Below are positions 1 through 5,960 of a stretch of DNA of 34,720 nucleotides, piece after piece (positions within the stretch are counted from its first letter, which is position 1; each line of letters starts with the position of its first letter). The translations under genes and the position numbers were made by a program. This stretch comes from Rhizobiaceae bacterium (GTDB lineage Bacteria > Pseudomonadota > Alphaproteobacteria > Rhizobiales > Rhizobiaceae), in NCBI GenBank assembly GCA_030065115.1, contig JASJDO010000028.1, positions 1 through 34,720 of the forward strand. Direction: 5' to 3'. The notes below the pieces were generated by a model, which was not told the origin of the DNA, did no database searches, and worked only from the letters and a program-made list of their open reading frames with translations.

Positions 1-2193
1 TGGGGAATCCATTAACTCAATGGAACCGCCATGATCTTCAATAATTTTTCGAACGATCGGCAAGCCGAGGCCGGTCCCCTTCTCCCGTGTCGTCATATAC
101 GGCTCAAGGAGTTTTTGCCGGTCGGTTTCGGGCAAACCTTTGCCATTATCGATGATATCCAGTCTGGCACGTTCATTCTCTATACTGAGATTGACTTCAA
201 TTTTGCCTTTTTCGTCACCCTCTTTGCCTTCTATGGCTTCCGCCGCGTTCTTGATCACATTGATCAAAGATTGCGAAATCATGCGTTCGTCATAGACAAC
301 AGACACTGCTTCGTCAGGCATTTGAAGTTGAATGTCGATTTCAGGAAAACCGACCTTTTGAAGGAATACAGTTTCACGAATGGTTTTCTTGATATTCCCT
401 TCGACCATTTCTGGTGCAGGCATTCTTGCGAATGAGGAGAACTCGTCAACCATGCGGCCAATGTCCCCAACCTGACGGATGATAGTGTCAGTACAATTGT
501 CGAACACTTCCCGATCATCATCGCTGATCTGACGACCGTACCGTCTCTTTATTCGTTCTGCCGACAATTGGATGGGAGTAAGGGGATTTTTGATTTCATG
601 CGCAATCCGCCGGGCAACATCTGCCCACGCAGTATTCCTCTGCGCCGAAACCAGATCGGTAATATCATCCAGCGTAAGCACAAAGGAATGAGATTCTGTT
701 GTTTCTTCCTCCATTGTCACCTGGACGTTGTATGTGCGTTCTCGCCCTTCCCTCACAAATGCAATTTGTTCGTGATATTGTGACTGTCCACTGCTGACAG
801 CCCGATCAAAAACCTCCCCCAATTCAGGTGCAATGTCATGCAATTGGGCGTTCTCAATTACTTTCTGATCATGGCCAAACAAAAGCGGCGAAGCAGACCG
901 ATTATTGATTGTTATCTTCCCATCTTGGGAAAGGCCGACCACACTTGCGCTAACGCCGGAAAGCACGGCTTCAATGAAACGGGCGCGTTGATCCATTAAG
1001 GTATTTGCTTCTACCAACTCACTTTGCTGATGTCGTAAATCGCCCAACATTTCGTTGAACGTTTCACCAAGAAAGCGCAAATCGCCCTCTGACTGACTGA
1101 CATCTACCGCCACATCCAGATTTCCGCCAGACACCTCGTTTGCGGTTCCTATCAACCGCCGTATAGGGGTAACAATGCGGGTCGCAACGCTGATGCCCAT
1201 CCAGATCGCACACAAAAGCACGATCACACATACTCCGAGATACAGCAGCGCGAATGCCAATTGGACCGGAAAACGATTTTCTTCCAAATTATTATATTCT
1301 TCGCTGTTGATCCTTGTGCTTTCTATTGCGTCATTTACTGCTGGATGAATGGCGATGACGGAATATAAATAGGAATTTGGAATCTGTCTGAGTTTAAATA
1401 CCGCGCCAATGAGATTATTGTTAGGTGGTGTCGGAACCGGATCTCCCTTATCAGCCAATTCCAGGGCAATTTCGGGCGGTTTGGGAATGTCCTGTTCTTC
1501 GTTCAAAGTTGCTTCGAATTGCGTTTCACCTTTTGTGTTAATGATCGCGGCGTACAAAAAACCACGACCTCTGGTTTCCAGTTCAAAAAGGCTCTCAAAA
1601 CCAAACCGGTCCAAGACGTATAAACGACGATTCCGGTCCAGATTGGAGGCCATGGAAAGCGTGTTTCCCAGCAAAACCCGCGTACTCTCGTTTCTGTAGG
1701 CACGTGCAATGCTTACCGAGGATTCGACGATGCGTTTGGTGCGAATTTCAAACCAGCGATCCAAGCCGAGATCCAGTGTCACGCCCGCAACAATGGCGAC
1801 CAGGACTGCGGGGAACGCCGCTACCAGGCAGAACAGGCCGATGATCCGCACGTGCAAGCGCGAAGCTGCCCTACCCTTGGCGCGAGACCTGAGGATTTTC
1901 AGCACTTCTCTTACAATCAGAAACACCAACACCAGAATGAGGATGCCATTAACCGCTGCTGCAGAATAAACGATGTACTGATTGTTCGGATTGATTGGGG
2001 TCAAACCGATCAGCACAAGAAAACTCAATGTACCGGTGATCATCAAAGCAATCACCGTTGCCAGACCAATTTTACGTCCCAATGACCCCTTCTCAGATCC
2101 GTATTCTTGTTTTGAAGATTGAGTTATGGGATCGGGCTCTGTGGAAGCAGAGCTTTCTGCGTCTTGATGGTTCAGAATATCTGCGGTTGTCAC
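1..2193 (-). CDS. ntrY: Nitrogen regulation sensor histidine kinase NtrY (C-terminal end beyond window)
   Basis: Membrane-bound sensor kinase, normally paired with the response regulator NtrX. I translated the minus strand by hand and found one open frame of 731 codons running off the left edge. Four hydrophobic segments lie in the N-terminal half, with a large extracytoplasmic loop before the fourth, followed by HAMP, PAS, HisKA and HATPase domains. The phosphoacceptor box reads [13 protein letters not shown], the N box NVIKNAAEAIEG, and the G boxes DNGKGLP and GTGLGLPIV, so the catalytic core is complete. Family members are about 750-770 residues, so only a short tail is missing. The start is taken as GTG at 2193, because a stop codon in the same frame lies three codons upstream and the ribosome-binding site is weak. 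It lies 127 bases downstream of ntrC on the same strand. ntrX would be expected just outside the window. Confidence 0.95.
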   Translation of the reverse strand, partial: MTTADILNHQDAESSASTEPDPITQSSKQEYGSEKGSLGRKIGLATVIALMITGTLSFLVLIGLTPINPNNQYIVYSAAAVNGILILVLVFLIVREVLKILRSRAKGRAASRLHVRIIGLFCLVAAFPAVLVAIVAGVTLDLGLDRWFEIRTKRIVESSVSIARAYRNESTRVLLGNTLSMASNLDRNRRLYVLDRFGFESLFELETRGRGFLYAAIINTKGETQFEATLNEEQDIPKPPEIALELADKGDPVPTPPNNNLIGAVFKLRQIPNSYLYSVIAIHPAVNDAIESTRINSEEYNNLEENRFPVQLAFALLYLGVCVIVLLCAIWMGISVATRIVTPIRRLIGTANEVSGGNLDVAVDVSQSEGDLRFLGETFNEMLGDLRHQQSELVEANTLMDQRARFIEAVLSGVSASVVGLSQDGKITINNRSASPLLFGHDQKVIENAQLHDIAPELGEVFDRAVSSGQSQYHEQIAFVREGRERTYNVQVTMEEETTESHSFVLTLDDITDLVSAQRNTAWADVARRIAHEIKNPLTPIQLSAERIKRRYGRQISDDDREVFDNCTDTIIRQVGDIGRMVDEFSSFARMPAPEMVEGNIKKTIRETVFLQKVGFPEIDIQLQMPDEAVSVVYDERMISQSLINVIKNAAEAIEGKEGDEKGKIEVNLSIENERARLDIIDNGKGLPETDRQKLLEPYMTTREKGTGLGLPIVRKIIEDHGGSIELMDSP

Positions 2194-2320: not shown

Positions 2321-3760
2321 TCATTTGGCTGTTCTGACGATACGAATGCCATGTTGCTTGATTTTTTTACGCAAAGTATTTCGGTTCAAGCCAAGCACCT
2401 TCGCGGCCTTGATTTGATTGCCGTTGGTTGCCTGTAACGTTGTGGTGATCAGAGGATACTCAAAATCCTGCAGAAAGCGGTCATATACACCGTCCGGCGG
2501 CATTGATGTTCCGTGTTCCTCAAAGTATCTGGAGATGAAATATTCAGTGGCGCTTTGCAGGCCGGTGAACCCTCCGCTACTGGCATCCATCATGCTTTTT
2601 CTGAAGAATCCACCATTCTTTATTTCGGTTTCGACTATCGTTGGTGTGATTGTTTCTTGCGGGTAGAGAACAGCAATCCGGCGAATCAAATTCTCAAACT
2701 CTCGAACATTTCCCGGCCACAAGTGATCGCGTAAAACAGAGAGGGCGTCGCTTTCAATAAATTTCGCCTTCGCTCCTTCCATTTCCGCCATTTTCAAAAA
2801 ATGCCGGGCGAGATCTGCGATATCTTCTCTACGATCTTTCAGCGCTGGCAAACGGATCGGCACGACGTTCAATCGGTAGTACAGGTCTTCGCGAAACAGC
2901 CCCTGATTGATAAGATGGTCCAAATCCTGTGTGGTCGATGACACAAACCTAATATCAAGCTTGAGAGGCATGGTGCTGCCGGTGGGCGTTGCTTCGCCTG
3001 TCTGCAAGACGCGAAGCAATCGCGATTGAACATTCAATGGTAGCCCTGCCACTTCTTCCAAATAGAGCGTACCCCCATCTGCCTTTCGCAGAATACCATG
3101 CTCCAATCCACCTTCCGGTTTTTGCCTTCCGAACAAGTGATCTTCAACCATTTCTTCTGGTATTGATGACAGATTGACTGTCACGAAGGGGCCGTGTTTA
3201 CGGCCACCAAAATCGTGCAAAACTCTCGCAGTAAGTTTTTTCCCCGTCCCAGACAATCCGGAAATCATGACCGCCATGTCTGATGCGGTCAGCCGGGCAA
3301 TTGAGCGATACACTTCCTGCATCGCCTGAGACCGGCCTACCAAAGGCATTTTGGCCGAATACTCATCTGGCGTTTGCGTTGTTCTATTATCCTTGGGTTC
3401 AAGAACGGCACGATTTACCGCCTCAACAAGCCTTTCCAGATCAAACGGTTTTGGAAGATACTCATACGCACCAGCTTCCTGGGCGTTCAACGCTGTCATG
3501 AATGTGTTCTGCGCACTGATCAAAATGACCGGTAAATCTGGTCTGTGATGTTTAATTCTGGGCAAAAGATCAAATGCATCACCATCCGGCATGATGACGT
3601 CGGAGACAACGCAGTCACCCTCACCTTCTTCCACCCATTCCCAGAGTTTTGAAACATTGGACGCGACCCTGACCTCGTAGCCAGCGCGGGTCAGTGCCTG
3701 ATTTATCACAAGACGAATCGCAGCATCATCATCTGCGACTATGATTGATCCCTTAGCCAT
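2321..3760 (-). CDS. ntrC: Nitrogen response regulator NtrC, atypical (GAFTGA loop lost)
   Basis: DNA-binding response regulator of the Ntr system, phosphorylated by NtrB; 479 residues. The receiver domain (about 1-120) has the acidic pocket D10-D12 and phosphoacceptor D54. The AAA+ domain (about 140-370) keeps a Walker A (GLSGTGKK, 168-175) and the FREDLYYRLN segment. The C-terminal Fis-type helix-turn-helix (NQIKAAKVLGLNRNTLRKKI) is intact. Unusually, the loop that normally reads GAFTGA is replaced: after LFG (209-211) comes RQKPEGGLEHG. Walker B is LYLEEVAG instead of the usual LFLDEIGD. The start is ATG 3760, with GGAGG seven bases upstream; the longer frame to 3871 would run deep into ntrB. 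The start overlaps the end of ntrB by eight bases, which suggests translational coupling. Identity is sure; the mechanism of activation is in doubt. Confidence 0.95.
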   Translation of the reverse strand: MAKGSIIVADDDAAIRLVINQALTRAGYEVRVASNVSKLWEWVEEGEGDCVVSDVIMPDGDAFDLLPRIKHHRPDLPVILISAQNTFMTALNAQEAGAYEYLPKPFDLERLVEAVNRAVLEPKDNRTTQTPDEYSAKMPLVGRSQAMQEVYRSIARLTASDMAVMISGLSGTGKKLTARVLHDFGGRKHGPFVTVNLSSIPEEMVEDHLFGRQKPEGGLEHGILRKADGGTLYLEEVAGLPLNVQSRLLRVLQTGEATPTGSTMPLKLDIRFVSSTTQDLDHLINQGLFREDLYYRLNVVPIRLPALKDRREDIADLARHFLKMAEMEGAKAKFIESDALSVLRDHLWPGNVREFENLIRRIAVLYPQETITPTIVETEIKNGGFFRKSMMDASSGGFTGLQSATEYFISRYFEEHGTSMPPDGVYDRFLQDFEYPLITTTLQATNGNQIKAAKVLGLNRNTLRKKIKQHGIRIVRTAK

Positions 3761-4880
3761 GCTTGCCTCCCGGTTTGACACCTTCATTGTCTTGCCAGGC
3801 GGGCAACATAATTCTGAATGTTGTCCCCTTTTTATGGCTGTCGCATTCAACAATACCGCCATGTTGACCAATCACCTTGGCAACCAGAGCAAGACCAAGG
3901 CCGCTACCGTTTATCCGACTGGTTACGAATGGCTCAAAAATATGAGCCTGCAATTCTTCTGGTATCCCCGGGCCGGTATCTGTCACACAAAACTCGAGTG
4001 GCAACGCGGCACGCTCCTGACTGCCGGGCCGCACAAATCGAATCCCCGGACGATAGGCCGAGGTAAATCGGACATGCCTTTTGCGCTGACCTGCCACGGC
4101 CTCAGATGCGTTTTTGGCGAGGTTTAAGAACACCTGAATGAGCTGATCCGTAGACCCCGAAACGAATGGAAGCGAAGGATCATAGCTTTCCGAAAATTCT
4201 ACATCCTGACCAAAACCGTTTTCCGCAATTTGACGCACGCGTCCCAATACAGAGTGCATGTTCACAGGTTCGCGTTCTATGGGCGTCTGATCAGAAAAGA
4301 TTTCCATACGATCAACAATCTTGACGATCCGGTCGGTCTCGTCACGTATCAGCTGCGCAAGTTCCTTGTCCTGCGCAGGGACAACAGTTTCCAACAATTG
4401 TGCAGCACCCCGAATGCCAGAAAGCGGATTCTTGATTTCATGCGCAAGCATGGCTGCCAAACCCGTTACAGAGCGCGCCGCGCCACGATGGGTAAGTTGC
4501 CGATTGATGCGTTCTGCCATGCTGCGCTCACGGAACGATATCAGCGCCTTTGTAGAATGTTGTGCCATTGGGGCAACATGTGCATCAACGATCTTGCCTT
4601 CACCGGTTCTCGGCGTAGAAATATCAATACGATATTCGTTTACGGGCGTGTTGGTGGAAAGTGTGCGAACGACCAGTTCCGGAATTGGGCTGCCATAGGG
4701 CAAGAGCGAAGCAAGCGGCTTGCCCAACATGTAGGTGGCAGAGGAACGGAAAATGTTCTCTGCGGTTGAATTTACATACTCAATGATGCTCTCTTCACTG
4801 ACAATGATCACAGCACCAGGCAGAGAATCGAGAATATCTCCAGGATCAAAATGTGCCTTAGTTTGTTCCACCAGTTTCAT
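3753..4880 (-). CDS. ntrB: Nitrogen regulation sensor kinase/phosphatase NtrB
   Basis: Cytosolic histidine kinase of 375 residues that phosphorylates or dephosphorylates NtrC in response to PII protein. An N-terminal PAS domain occupies about 10-120, with no membrane segments. The phosphoacceptor is H147 in [11 protein letters not shown]. The ATP-binding domain shows [20 protein letters not shown] and GSGLGLALV. Length and domain order are those of the family. The start codon overlaps the dusB stop (ATGA, 4877-4880), and the end overlaps the ntrC start by eight bases, so dusB-ntrB-ntrC form a tightly packed operon, as in other rhizobia. NtrB looks fully normal, in contrast to its partner NtrC. 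Confidence 0.96.
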
Positions 4881-5911
4881 GCCGCTTCTCCCGCTGCATC
4901 CGCTTCAAAGCCAAGCGAATGCAAGGCGTAAAGTTCCGGAACCAAAGCCTGGACTTCTTGAACATCGAAAGACGTCATGATTTTGCGTTTTAATGTACTT
5001 GCGCTTTTTGGCAGGTTCAGACCATCAAAATACCAACCCAGATGCTTCCGGGTCTGCCGAATACCACTTGCTTCACCATAGAATGAAAGCATCGCCTCAT
5101 GATGCGTCAGAACAAGATCAGGATCAGATTTGAGTTGTACTGCTTCTTCTTCAGTTACCTCACCGGATATTTGAGCCGGCAGCCAAGGTGCGCCATAGGC
5201 TCCACGCCCGATCATAACCGCATCCGCACCGCTGAATTGCATTGCTTTGTCTGCATCTGATTTTGACTTGATATCACCATTCACAACCAGCGGCACGGAA
5301 ACGACCTCACGCACTGCCCTTACTTTTGCCCAATCGGCATGGCCCTTGTAAAACTGACAACGGGTGCGGCCATGGATTGTGATCATCTGCACCCCTGCCG
5401 CTTCTGCGCGCTGTGCGAGTTCCGGCGCATTCAGGGATTGATCATCCCAGCCCAGACGCGTTTTCAACGTCACGGGAATTGAAACTGCAGCAACAGTAGC
5501 TTCGATCAACACCACTGCGTGATCCAGATCGCGCATTAACGCAGAGCCGGAATATCCCGTCGTGACGCGTTTTGCGGGACATCCCATATTTATGTCGATA
5601 ATTGAAGCGCCATTGTCTTCAGCCATCTTGGCAGCAAGTGCCATCCATTCTGCTTCTCTGCCTGCAAGTTGAACCACGTGCTGGGGTGAATGCCCCTGCA
5701 TGAGCTTTAATTGCATTTCCGCCTCGCCCTCCATAAGAGCCTGGCTTGCAACCATTTCAGAAACCACAAGCCCAGCCCCATATTTCCACGCCAAGTTACG
5801 AAATGGCACGTCTGTCACTCCTGACATGGGGGCGAGAATGGCTCGATTACGCACGTTGACATTTCCAATCTGGAAAGGCTCTGAAAGTGCATTTGATGAA
5901 ATATCATGCAT
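4877..5911 (-). CDS. dusB: tRNA-dihydrouridine synthase DusB
   Basis: Flavoenzyme that reduces uridine to dihydrouridine in tRNA; 344 residues, a usual length. The TIM-barrel start [13 protein letters not shown], the catalytic cysteine in [15 protein letters not shown], the FMN-phosphate region [13 protein letters not shown] and the NGDI strand are all present. It is the first gene of the leftward dusB-ntrB-ntrC unit, a linkage common in proteobacteria. The ATG at 5911 has no obvious Shine-Dalgarno sequence, and the leader just upstream is very AT-rich. No better start appears inside the conserved region. Confidence 0.95.
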
Positions 5912-5960
5912 AATTTTTAAATTCTCAGATGATGCCTATTTTTTGGGCAAAATTTGAAAC

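Follow-up and report, generated by a model that had tools for sequence, protein, structure and literature searches.

NtrC without the GAFTGA loop and the probable departure of glnBA from the sigma-54 regulon in a genus of Rhizobiaceae

Locus and NtrC sequence

The window (the whole stretch of DNA analyzed, 34,720 nucleotides) comes from the draft genome of a Rhizobiaceae bacterium (191 contigs, 3.18 Mb, 94% complete), in which it is contig C33. It carries the nitrogen regulator gene ntrC downstream of ntrB, with the following features.

1..2193, minus strand: ntrY, named from sequence and gene order, truncated by the contig end
2321..3760, minus strand: ntrC, 479 amino acids, ATG at 3760 (the listed 516-amino-acid open reading frame begins upstream, with TTG)
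2354..2419, minus strand: Fis-type helix-turn-helix of NtrC (Pfam HTH_8)
2873..2893, minus strand: RxDxxxR arginine-finger motif of NtrC (REDLYYR), intact in the window
3044..3076, minus strand: Walker B of NtrC (GGTLYLEEVAG), first acid changed from D to E, second (E) retained
3095..3130, minus strand: loop 1 of the NtrC AAA+ domain, G-RQKPEGGLEHG where the GAFTGA stretch is expected, 4 residues shorter than canonical
3236..3259, minus strand: Walker A of NtrC (GLSGTGKK), lysine retained, next glutamate (equivalent of PspF E43 by motif match) substituted
3413..3745, minus strand: receiver domain of NtrC (Pfam Response_reg), phospho-acceptor D53 at 3599-3601
3753..4880, minus strand: ntrB, sensor kinase with PAS, HisKA, and HATPase domains
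4877..5911, minus strand: dusB (sequence-based name), head of the dusB-ntrB-ntrC unit
5933..5949, minus strand: candidate NtrC-type operator TGCCCAAAAAATAGGCA, separated by 21 bp from the start codon of dusB, equaled in 0/300 shuffles

Codons were read on the minus strand. The segment immediately behind LF is G-RQKPEGGLEHG, as the original prediction had it, and the altered ATPase motifs that it named were read as well (Walker A GLSGTGKK versus canonical GESGTGKE; Walker B LYLEEVAG versus canonical LFLDEIGD). The frame is open, the receiver aspartate lies in VVSDVIMPD, and the helix-turn-helix reads NQIKAAKVLGLNRNTLRKKI; the receiver and DNA-binding domains are thus intact and, with all three of its domains found, NtrB is normal, both as predicted. 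With its receiver, AAA+, and Fis-type helix-turn-helix parts, the protein has by far its best NCBIfam match in TIGR01818 (ntrC), at 520 bits against a cut-off of 558.6. The genus-mate G003 reaches 542 bits, and the relatives G015, G012, and G018 lie above the cut-off (636, 663, and 694 bits). An AlphaFold2 model (37 sequences) has the AAA+ fold (mean pLDDT, 90.8), with loop 1 as a short hairpin (block pLDDT, 94 to 98). Among solved structures, the closest to the model are Brucella NtrX and NtrC-family activators; the best match in both structure and sequence, Brucella abortus NtrX (PDB 5m7n, 5m7o, and 5m7p), is a different orthologue, and the own genome has a separate NtrX, encoded at the start of contig C171.

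The original prediction had named a second, canonical NtrC as one finding that would count against it, and a Sigma54_activat profile search of the own genome (94% complete) returned none. Three proteins match across the whole domain (NtrC, NtrX on C171, and a response regulator on C88), and four more matches are weak and partial. The C88 regulator has GAFTGA and is 34% identical to NtrC; its best NCBIfam models are AtoC (411 bits), LuxO (393 bits), and ntrC (389 bits), each below its cut-off.

Loop loss in the genus, family, order, and class

The genus sample comprised 12 genomes, of which 11 yielded an NtrC; none was found in G010 (83% complete). GAFTGA is absent from 11/11. The loop is 4 residues shorter than canonical in nine genomes, 3 shorter in G007, and 7 shorter in G009, and its letters vary between species, with no visible replacement motif. 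The nearest relative, G005, has an NtrC 89% identical to that of the window and a loop of equal length. A sequencing or assembly artefact, which a 191-contig draft might invite, is refuted by the recurrence of the same state in 11 genus genomes, and we give it practically no weight; the original prediction had likewise thought a sequencing error improbable, from the unbroken frame. Between the own genome (G000) and G005, pN of ntrC is 0.076 and pS is 0.84, a ratio of about 1/10 with synonymous sites saturated, for which reason pN and pS are given and dN/dS per domain was dropped. By this sequence comparison ntrC is under purifying selection.

In the family and order, 206 genomes had an NtrC match and 150 were read: 137 have GAFTGA or GSFTGA, and the 13 without either are the 11 genus members, G015 (GVLGQT), and G082 (DVFSWA). 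At class level, 118 genomes besides the own matched at the strict cut-off (109 read first, G255 later), and 73/192 class genomes were unmatched at that cut-off, so that more diverged NtrCs lie outside this census. In 125 rows, made up of the 109 class genomes and the first 16 of at least 80 named loci, nine lack the motif (G298, G403, G315, G243, G354, G240, G353, G375, and G293). Loss of GAFTGA, as read from these sequences, is therefore recurrent in the class, and loop-less NtrCs of Rhodobacterales and Caulobacter are already in print (PMC10274813).

G082 belongs to another genus of the same family; besides DVFSWA in place of GAFTGA, it has no GlnB match at the cut-off, and rpoN was not found in it. 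It is possibly an independent and complete exit from sigma-54.

The NtrC tree, in which several loop-less rows form long branches, was set aside for counting losses, and GlnB-GlnA trees were used (rows with GlnB only: G045, G353, and G240 in a first tree; G257, G334, and G375 in a 70-row tree). In the first tree, the genus and G015 form one clade (100/95), adjoined by the canonical G012 (93/84). Within the clade, G015 groups with G007 and G009 (94/85), i.e., inside the genus as drawn; if this placement holds, shortened loops arose more than once. Because the loop of G015 is substituted at full length (GVLGQT) and its Walker motifs are intact, this genome may represent an early stage; the deletions and the decay of the ATPase would have followed, an order that we infer from the sequences. 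The original prediction had proposed a switch parallel to that of Rhodobacter capsulatus, and this distribution agrees with it: outside the genus, G015 and G082 are the only family members read whose loop is not canonical, and the genus and G015 make up a single clade.

Decay of the AAA+ domain

Positions constant in at least 98% of the 137 canonical rows were taken as invariant and compared in ten genus members (G002, with a partial NtrC, was left out). The share of changed invariant cells is 2% in the receiver (40 positions) and 5% in the DNA-binding part (17 positions), against 27% and 24% in the two AAA+ parts (43 and 70 positions) and 82% in loop 1 (8 positions). The ratio of AAA+ to receiver divergence is 1.47 in the genus versus 0.84 in canonical pairs. 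The glutamate behind the P-loop lysine (PspF E43, by motif match) is replaced in 10/10 and also in G002, the Walker B aspartate (PspF D107) in 5/10 (by E, E, K, Q, and Q), and the second arginine of RxDxxxR (PspF R168) in 2/10. The aligned rows retain the lysine of the P loop, the second acid of Walker B, and the first arginine finger. In PspF, the ATPase Vmax of 39.5 per min falls to 1.4 in E43A, 0.23 in D107A, and 0.17 in R168A; these are alanine variants, and in the part of the source cited, the D-to-E change of the window's Walker B is not among them (PMC3419264). As judged from the alignment, the receiver and DNA-binding domains are conserved while the ATPase domain decays, with its catalytic residues partly lost.

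Two other members of the class with loop-less NtrCs, G315 and G293, have a much altered Walker B (FINYIE and YLPDVAE), which suggests from sequence that ATPase decay following loop loss happened more than once.

Sigma-54 promoter at glnB and rpoN

The best -24/-12 site within 300 bp upstream of glnB was scored with a hand-made consensus (maximum, 15). The scoring was fixed at the point where a difference emerged in four outgroup genomes, before most genomes were scored; the loop states of the genomes compared were verified, and the cut separating the groups was read off the scores themselves. All 52 canonical genomes score 13.0 to 15.0, namely 25/25 in the family (13.4 to 14.4; 21 of the sites at 67 to 94 bp before the start codon) and 27/27 in the class (13.0 to 15.0). 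No loop-less genome (0/18, other lineages included) exceeds 11.9 within the 300 bp. The own genome reaches 10.7, equaled by 87/200 shuffles, and in G354, in which no rpoN was found, the best site scores 10.6, a value reached by only 2.5% of shuffles of that genome's sequence. G010 (best score, 11.4) was left out of the loop-less count, its NtrC not having been found; three further genomes went unscored, G082 with no glnB match at the cut-off and G298 and G330 with glnK-like matches only. Searches of G002 and G005 gave no glnB, leaving 10 genus genomes with this gene. Behind glnB, glnA was found in 67/70 loci.

Among 26 genomes searched, rpoN is present in 12/12 of the genus and in G015, G012, G018, G104, G298, G403, G375, and G293; it was not found in G082, G243, G354, G240, G353, and G315. 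Thirteen of the 18 loop-less genomes therefore lack the glnB sigma-54 site while having rpoN, so the missing promoter is not simply a matter of sigma-54 loss; in the other five rpoN was not found, and its absence alone would remove the promoter. The own genome has 43 sigma-54 consensus sites, versus 10 for a reversed control pattern, and because of this excess and the GAFTGA-bearing C88 regulator, sigma-54 seems, from sequence, to be still in use there. Since rpoN is kept, the change concerns NtrC and its promoters and not sigma-54 as a whole. The original prediction had pointed to both rpoN and the sigma-54 promoters; in the own genome the former was found, and upstream of glnB no sigma-54 site was.

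Loop and promoter states agree row by row and were for this reason entered as one trait on the 70-row GlnB-GlnA tree, a quick tree with many weak forks. Six state changes were counted. Supported branches give four independent pairs, each of them in agreement but too few for significance (sign test, P = 0.125). The association of loop and promoter rests on about six independent events.

These data bear on the idea that NtrC has not given up sigma-54 and engages it by means of the altered loop or some other part of its surface. It would fit the presence of rpoN throughout the genus and the enrichment of consensus sites, and in Caulobacter, whose NtrC also has no loop, mutants unable to bind DNA (HTH mutants) had raised sigma-54-dependent transcripts (PMC12421884); loss of GAFTGA therefore does not strictly exclude an effect on sigma-54. 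Against it stand the missing glnB site in every loop-less genome scored, loop letters unconserved between genus species with no visible substitute, the decay of catalytic residues, and the report that other activators mostly become inactive when a single residue of the motif is changed (PMC3162934). We consider it very improbable.

NtrC-type operators

A degenerate operator pattern occurs at four exact places in the 3.18-Mb own genome: in the window, at glnB on C166, on C81, and on C184. The C81 place lies upstream of an ammonium transporter gene, amtB, and has a neighboring site with one mismatch at a distance of 34 bp; the C184 place lies inside an open reading frame that by eye resembles an acyl-CoA carboxylase subunit. 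With one mismatch allowed, there are 24 places and the reversed control has 15, for which reason we give weight to the exact places alone.

Upstream of glnB, TGCCTAA-N3-TTAGGCA or a close form is present in 10/10 genus genomes, G010 included, and was equaled by 0/200 shuffles in each. Of the other loop-less genomes, 7/9 have a glnB operator at P ≤ 0.01 (G240 and G375, 0.075), and of the canonical family genomes, 18/25 at P ≤ 0.05, mostly farther upstream. The genus and most of the other loop-less genomes thus keep the NtrC-type operator where the glnB sigma-54 site is missing, in further agreement with the switch originally proposed. In Paracoccus, an NtrC consensus similar to the glnB palindrome of the genus is described at glnBA, amtB, and nasTS, and in the nasT leader up-regulation was lost when a site of this kind was altered (PMC5424462).

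The dusB operator is above chance (P ≤ 0.02) in the window, in 8/8 genus regions, in G015, and in 7/9 canonical regions (18 of the 20 regions fetched were readable; G022 and G044 yielded no dusB start). These sequences make autoregulation of dusB-ntrB-ntrC likely and, the operator being found in genus, G015, and canonical regions alike, autoregulation looks ancestral.

At glnB, the operator begins 143 to 194 bp before the start codon in 10/10 genus genomes and 85 to 88 bp before a CTTG/CTTA box in 9/10 (73 bp in G007). CTTG is a mark of the alphaproteobacterial -35 element. The box was chosen by eye from the alignment; CTTG is identical in 7/7 close relatives, where the mean majority share between operator and box is 0.55, and in the own genome the corresponding letters are CTTA. 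No clear sigma-70 -10 box was seen at glnB by eye, and the putative sigma-70 promoter is accordingly a weak one.

Operator position also bears on a rival reading, that NtrC is only a repressor, or a repressor/anti-repressor, and that glnBA is transcribed from an unassisted housekeeping promoter. The window operator, 21 bp before the dusB start codon, has a repressor-like position, and a repressor could let its ATPase and loop decay without any loss. The glnB operator, so far upstream and at a near-constant distance from the box, suits activation better than occlusion; moreover, amtB has two operator-like sites upstream, of which one is exact and the other has a mismatch, and the loop-less NtrC of Caulobacter activates glnBA (PMC10274813). 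We hold repression alone to be unlikely, though worth keeping in mind.

The same operators weigh on a further reading, in which ntrC is a decaying gene of little use and nitrogen is controlled by other systems, e.g., a LysR-type regulator. Decay of the AAA+ domain and the failure to find NtrC in G010 (83% complete) would agree with it, as would a glnK-amtB pair that faces a LysR-type gene and carries a different palindrome, one that is also present before glnK in G012, G015, and seven genomes of the genus. The gene has nonetheless kept 98% of invariant cells in the receiver and 95% in the DNA-binding part, its pN is about a tenth of pS between G000 and G005, and its operators persist at glnB, amtB, and dusB-ntrB-ntrC; we see little chance that it is merely decaying.

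Interpretation

The reading that we prefer, at a probability of roughly 0.77, is that the sequences describe the orthologous NtrC of an NtrB-NtrC system, in a lineage that took glnBA out of the sigma-54 regulon. Our confidence is slightly lowered by the position of G015 inside the genus and by G240 and G375, which have no clear operator. The kept operator and the lost sigma-54 site suggest that NtrC, controlled by NtrB, most likely still binds DNA and now has the housekeeping polymerase as its target. NtrB would phosphorylate the NtrC receiver, upon which NtrC would oligomerize, bind its palindromes, and act on RNA polymerase carrying the housekeeping sigma factor. Its effect is probably activation at glnB and probably repression at its own operon, as the operator position there suggests. 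The power stroke on sigma-54 is probably lost, but binding of ATP may continue to support assembly, given that the lysine of the P loop and the second acid of Walker B have been retained. The window NtrC is, then, probably a phosphorylation-switched regulator of sigma-70 promoters that is no longer ATPase driven; whether it activates or represses at a given promoter, and with which polymerase, we infer from operator and promoter sequences.

Loop-less NtrC is known already from Rhodobacterales and Caulobacter, and by sequence the genus is a further, more decayed case. The NtrC of R. capsulatus, in which the GAFTGA region is deleted as it is missing in the window, activates with sigma-70 and needs phosphorylation and ATP binding but not hydrolysis (PMC10274813). 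G240 and G353, which from their large deletion we guess to be Rhodobacterales, share with the genus the absence of the glutamate behind the P-loop lysine; they differ in that their deletion is larger (DLEGPARVL) and Walker B keeps DE, whereas genus members are mostly 4 residues short and five species have lost the aspartate. The genus also keeps rpoN, which was not found in G240 and G353. In Caulobacter crescentus, loop-less NtrC binds and activates glnBA, is both activator and repressor at sigma-70 promoters, and needs the Walker A lysine K178 and the Walker B aspartate D235 (PMC10274813); the counterpart of D235 is glutamate in the window, lysine or glutamine in three sister species, and aspartate in others. 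Canonical NtrCs of the family and order (137 rows) resemble that of the window in receiver, helix-turn-helix, and, in 7/9 readable genomes, type of dusB operator, and differ in having G[AS]FTGA, mostly intact GESGTGKE and LDEIGD, and the glnB sigma-54 site (25/25 family genomes). Other activators that left sigma-54 are TyrR, DhaR, and HupR (PMC3162934). A search of the open literature found no report of a loop-less NtrC in this family, a weak negative, and none of a class-wide pattern in which the loop and the sigma-54 promoter of glnBA are lost together.

Sigma-54 activators are the textbook example of transcription that needs ATP hydrolysis. The genus shows a probable way out of that regime and has canonical relatives close by. 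With the substituted loop of G015, species that have kept or lost the aspartate of Walker B, and matching promoter changes, it makes it testable which AAA+ functions (assembly, ATP binding, or hydrolysis) a response regulator needs once sigma-54 is gone. It also suggests an annotation rule, that an alphaproteobacterial NtrC without GAFTGA predicts a glnBA that is not sigma-54 dependent. More tentatively, and at somewhat less than even odds, the AAA+ ring may be naturally motor-less: an assembly platform that binds ATP without hydrolyzing it and needs no more than phosphorylation to activate sigma-70 promoters, a state reached stepwise by a G015-like loop substitution, loop deletions, loss of the glutamate behind the P loop, and repeated loss of the Walker B aspartate. 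On this proposal sigma-54 would be kept for other genes, and in Alphaproteobacteria the NtrC loop and the glnBA sigma-54 promoter would have been lost jointly in every sampled case.

Other observations

NtrX of the own genome (C171, 1-1269) is also without GAFTGA (LFGTEDADGEPRKVGALEEAHGGTLYLDEIAD), with Walker motifs that look intact, and NtrX of the five genus-mates read is likewise without it.

The glnK-amtB pair lies on C10 (1480-2914), opposite the divergent LysR-type gene (an arrangement checked in the own genome only), with the palindrome CGTTGCGTTTTTTGCAACA between them. This palindrome was considered as an NtrC site and rejected, as it adjoins the divergent LysR gene and is present in the canonical G012 as well. 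Ammonium uptake through this pair may answer to the LysR regulator instead of NtrC. On C81 (900-2277), a second ammonium transporter gene stands before a third PII gene and has the two NtrC-type sites described above, 34 bp apart, on its upstream side.
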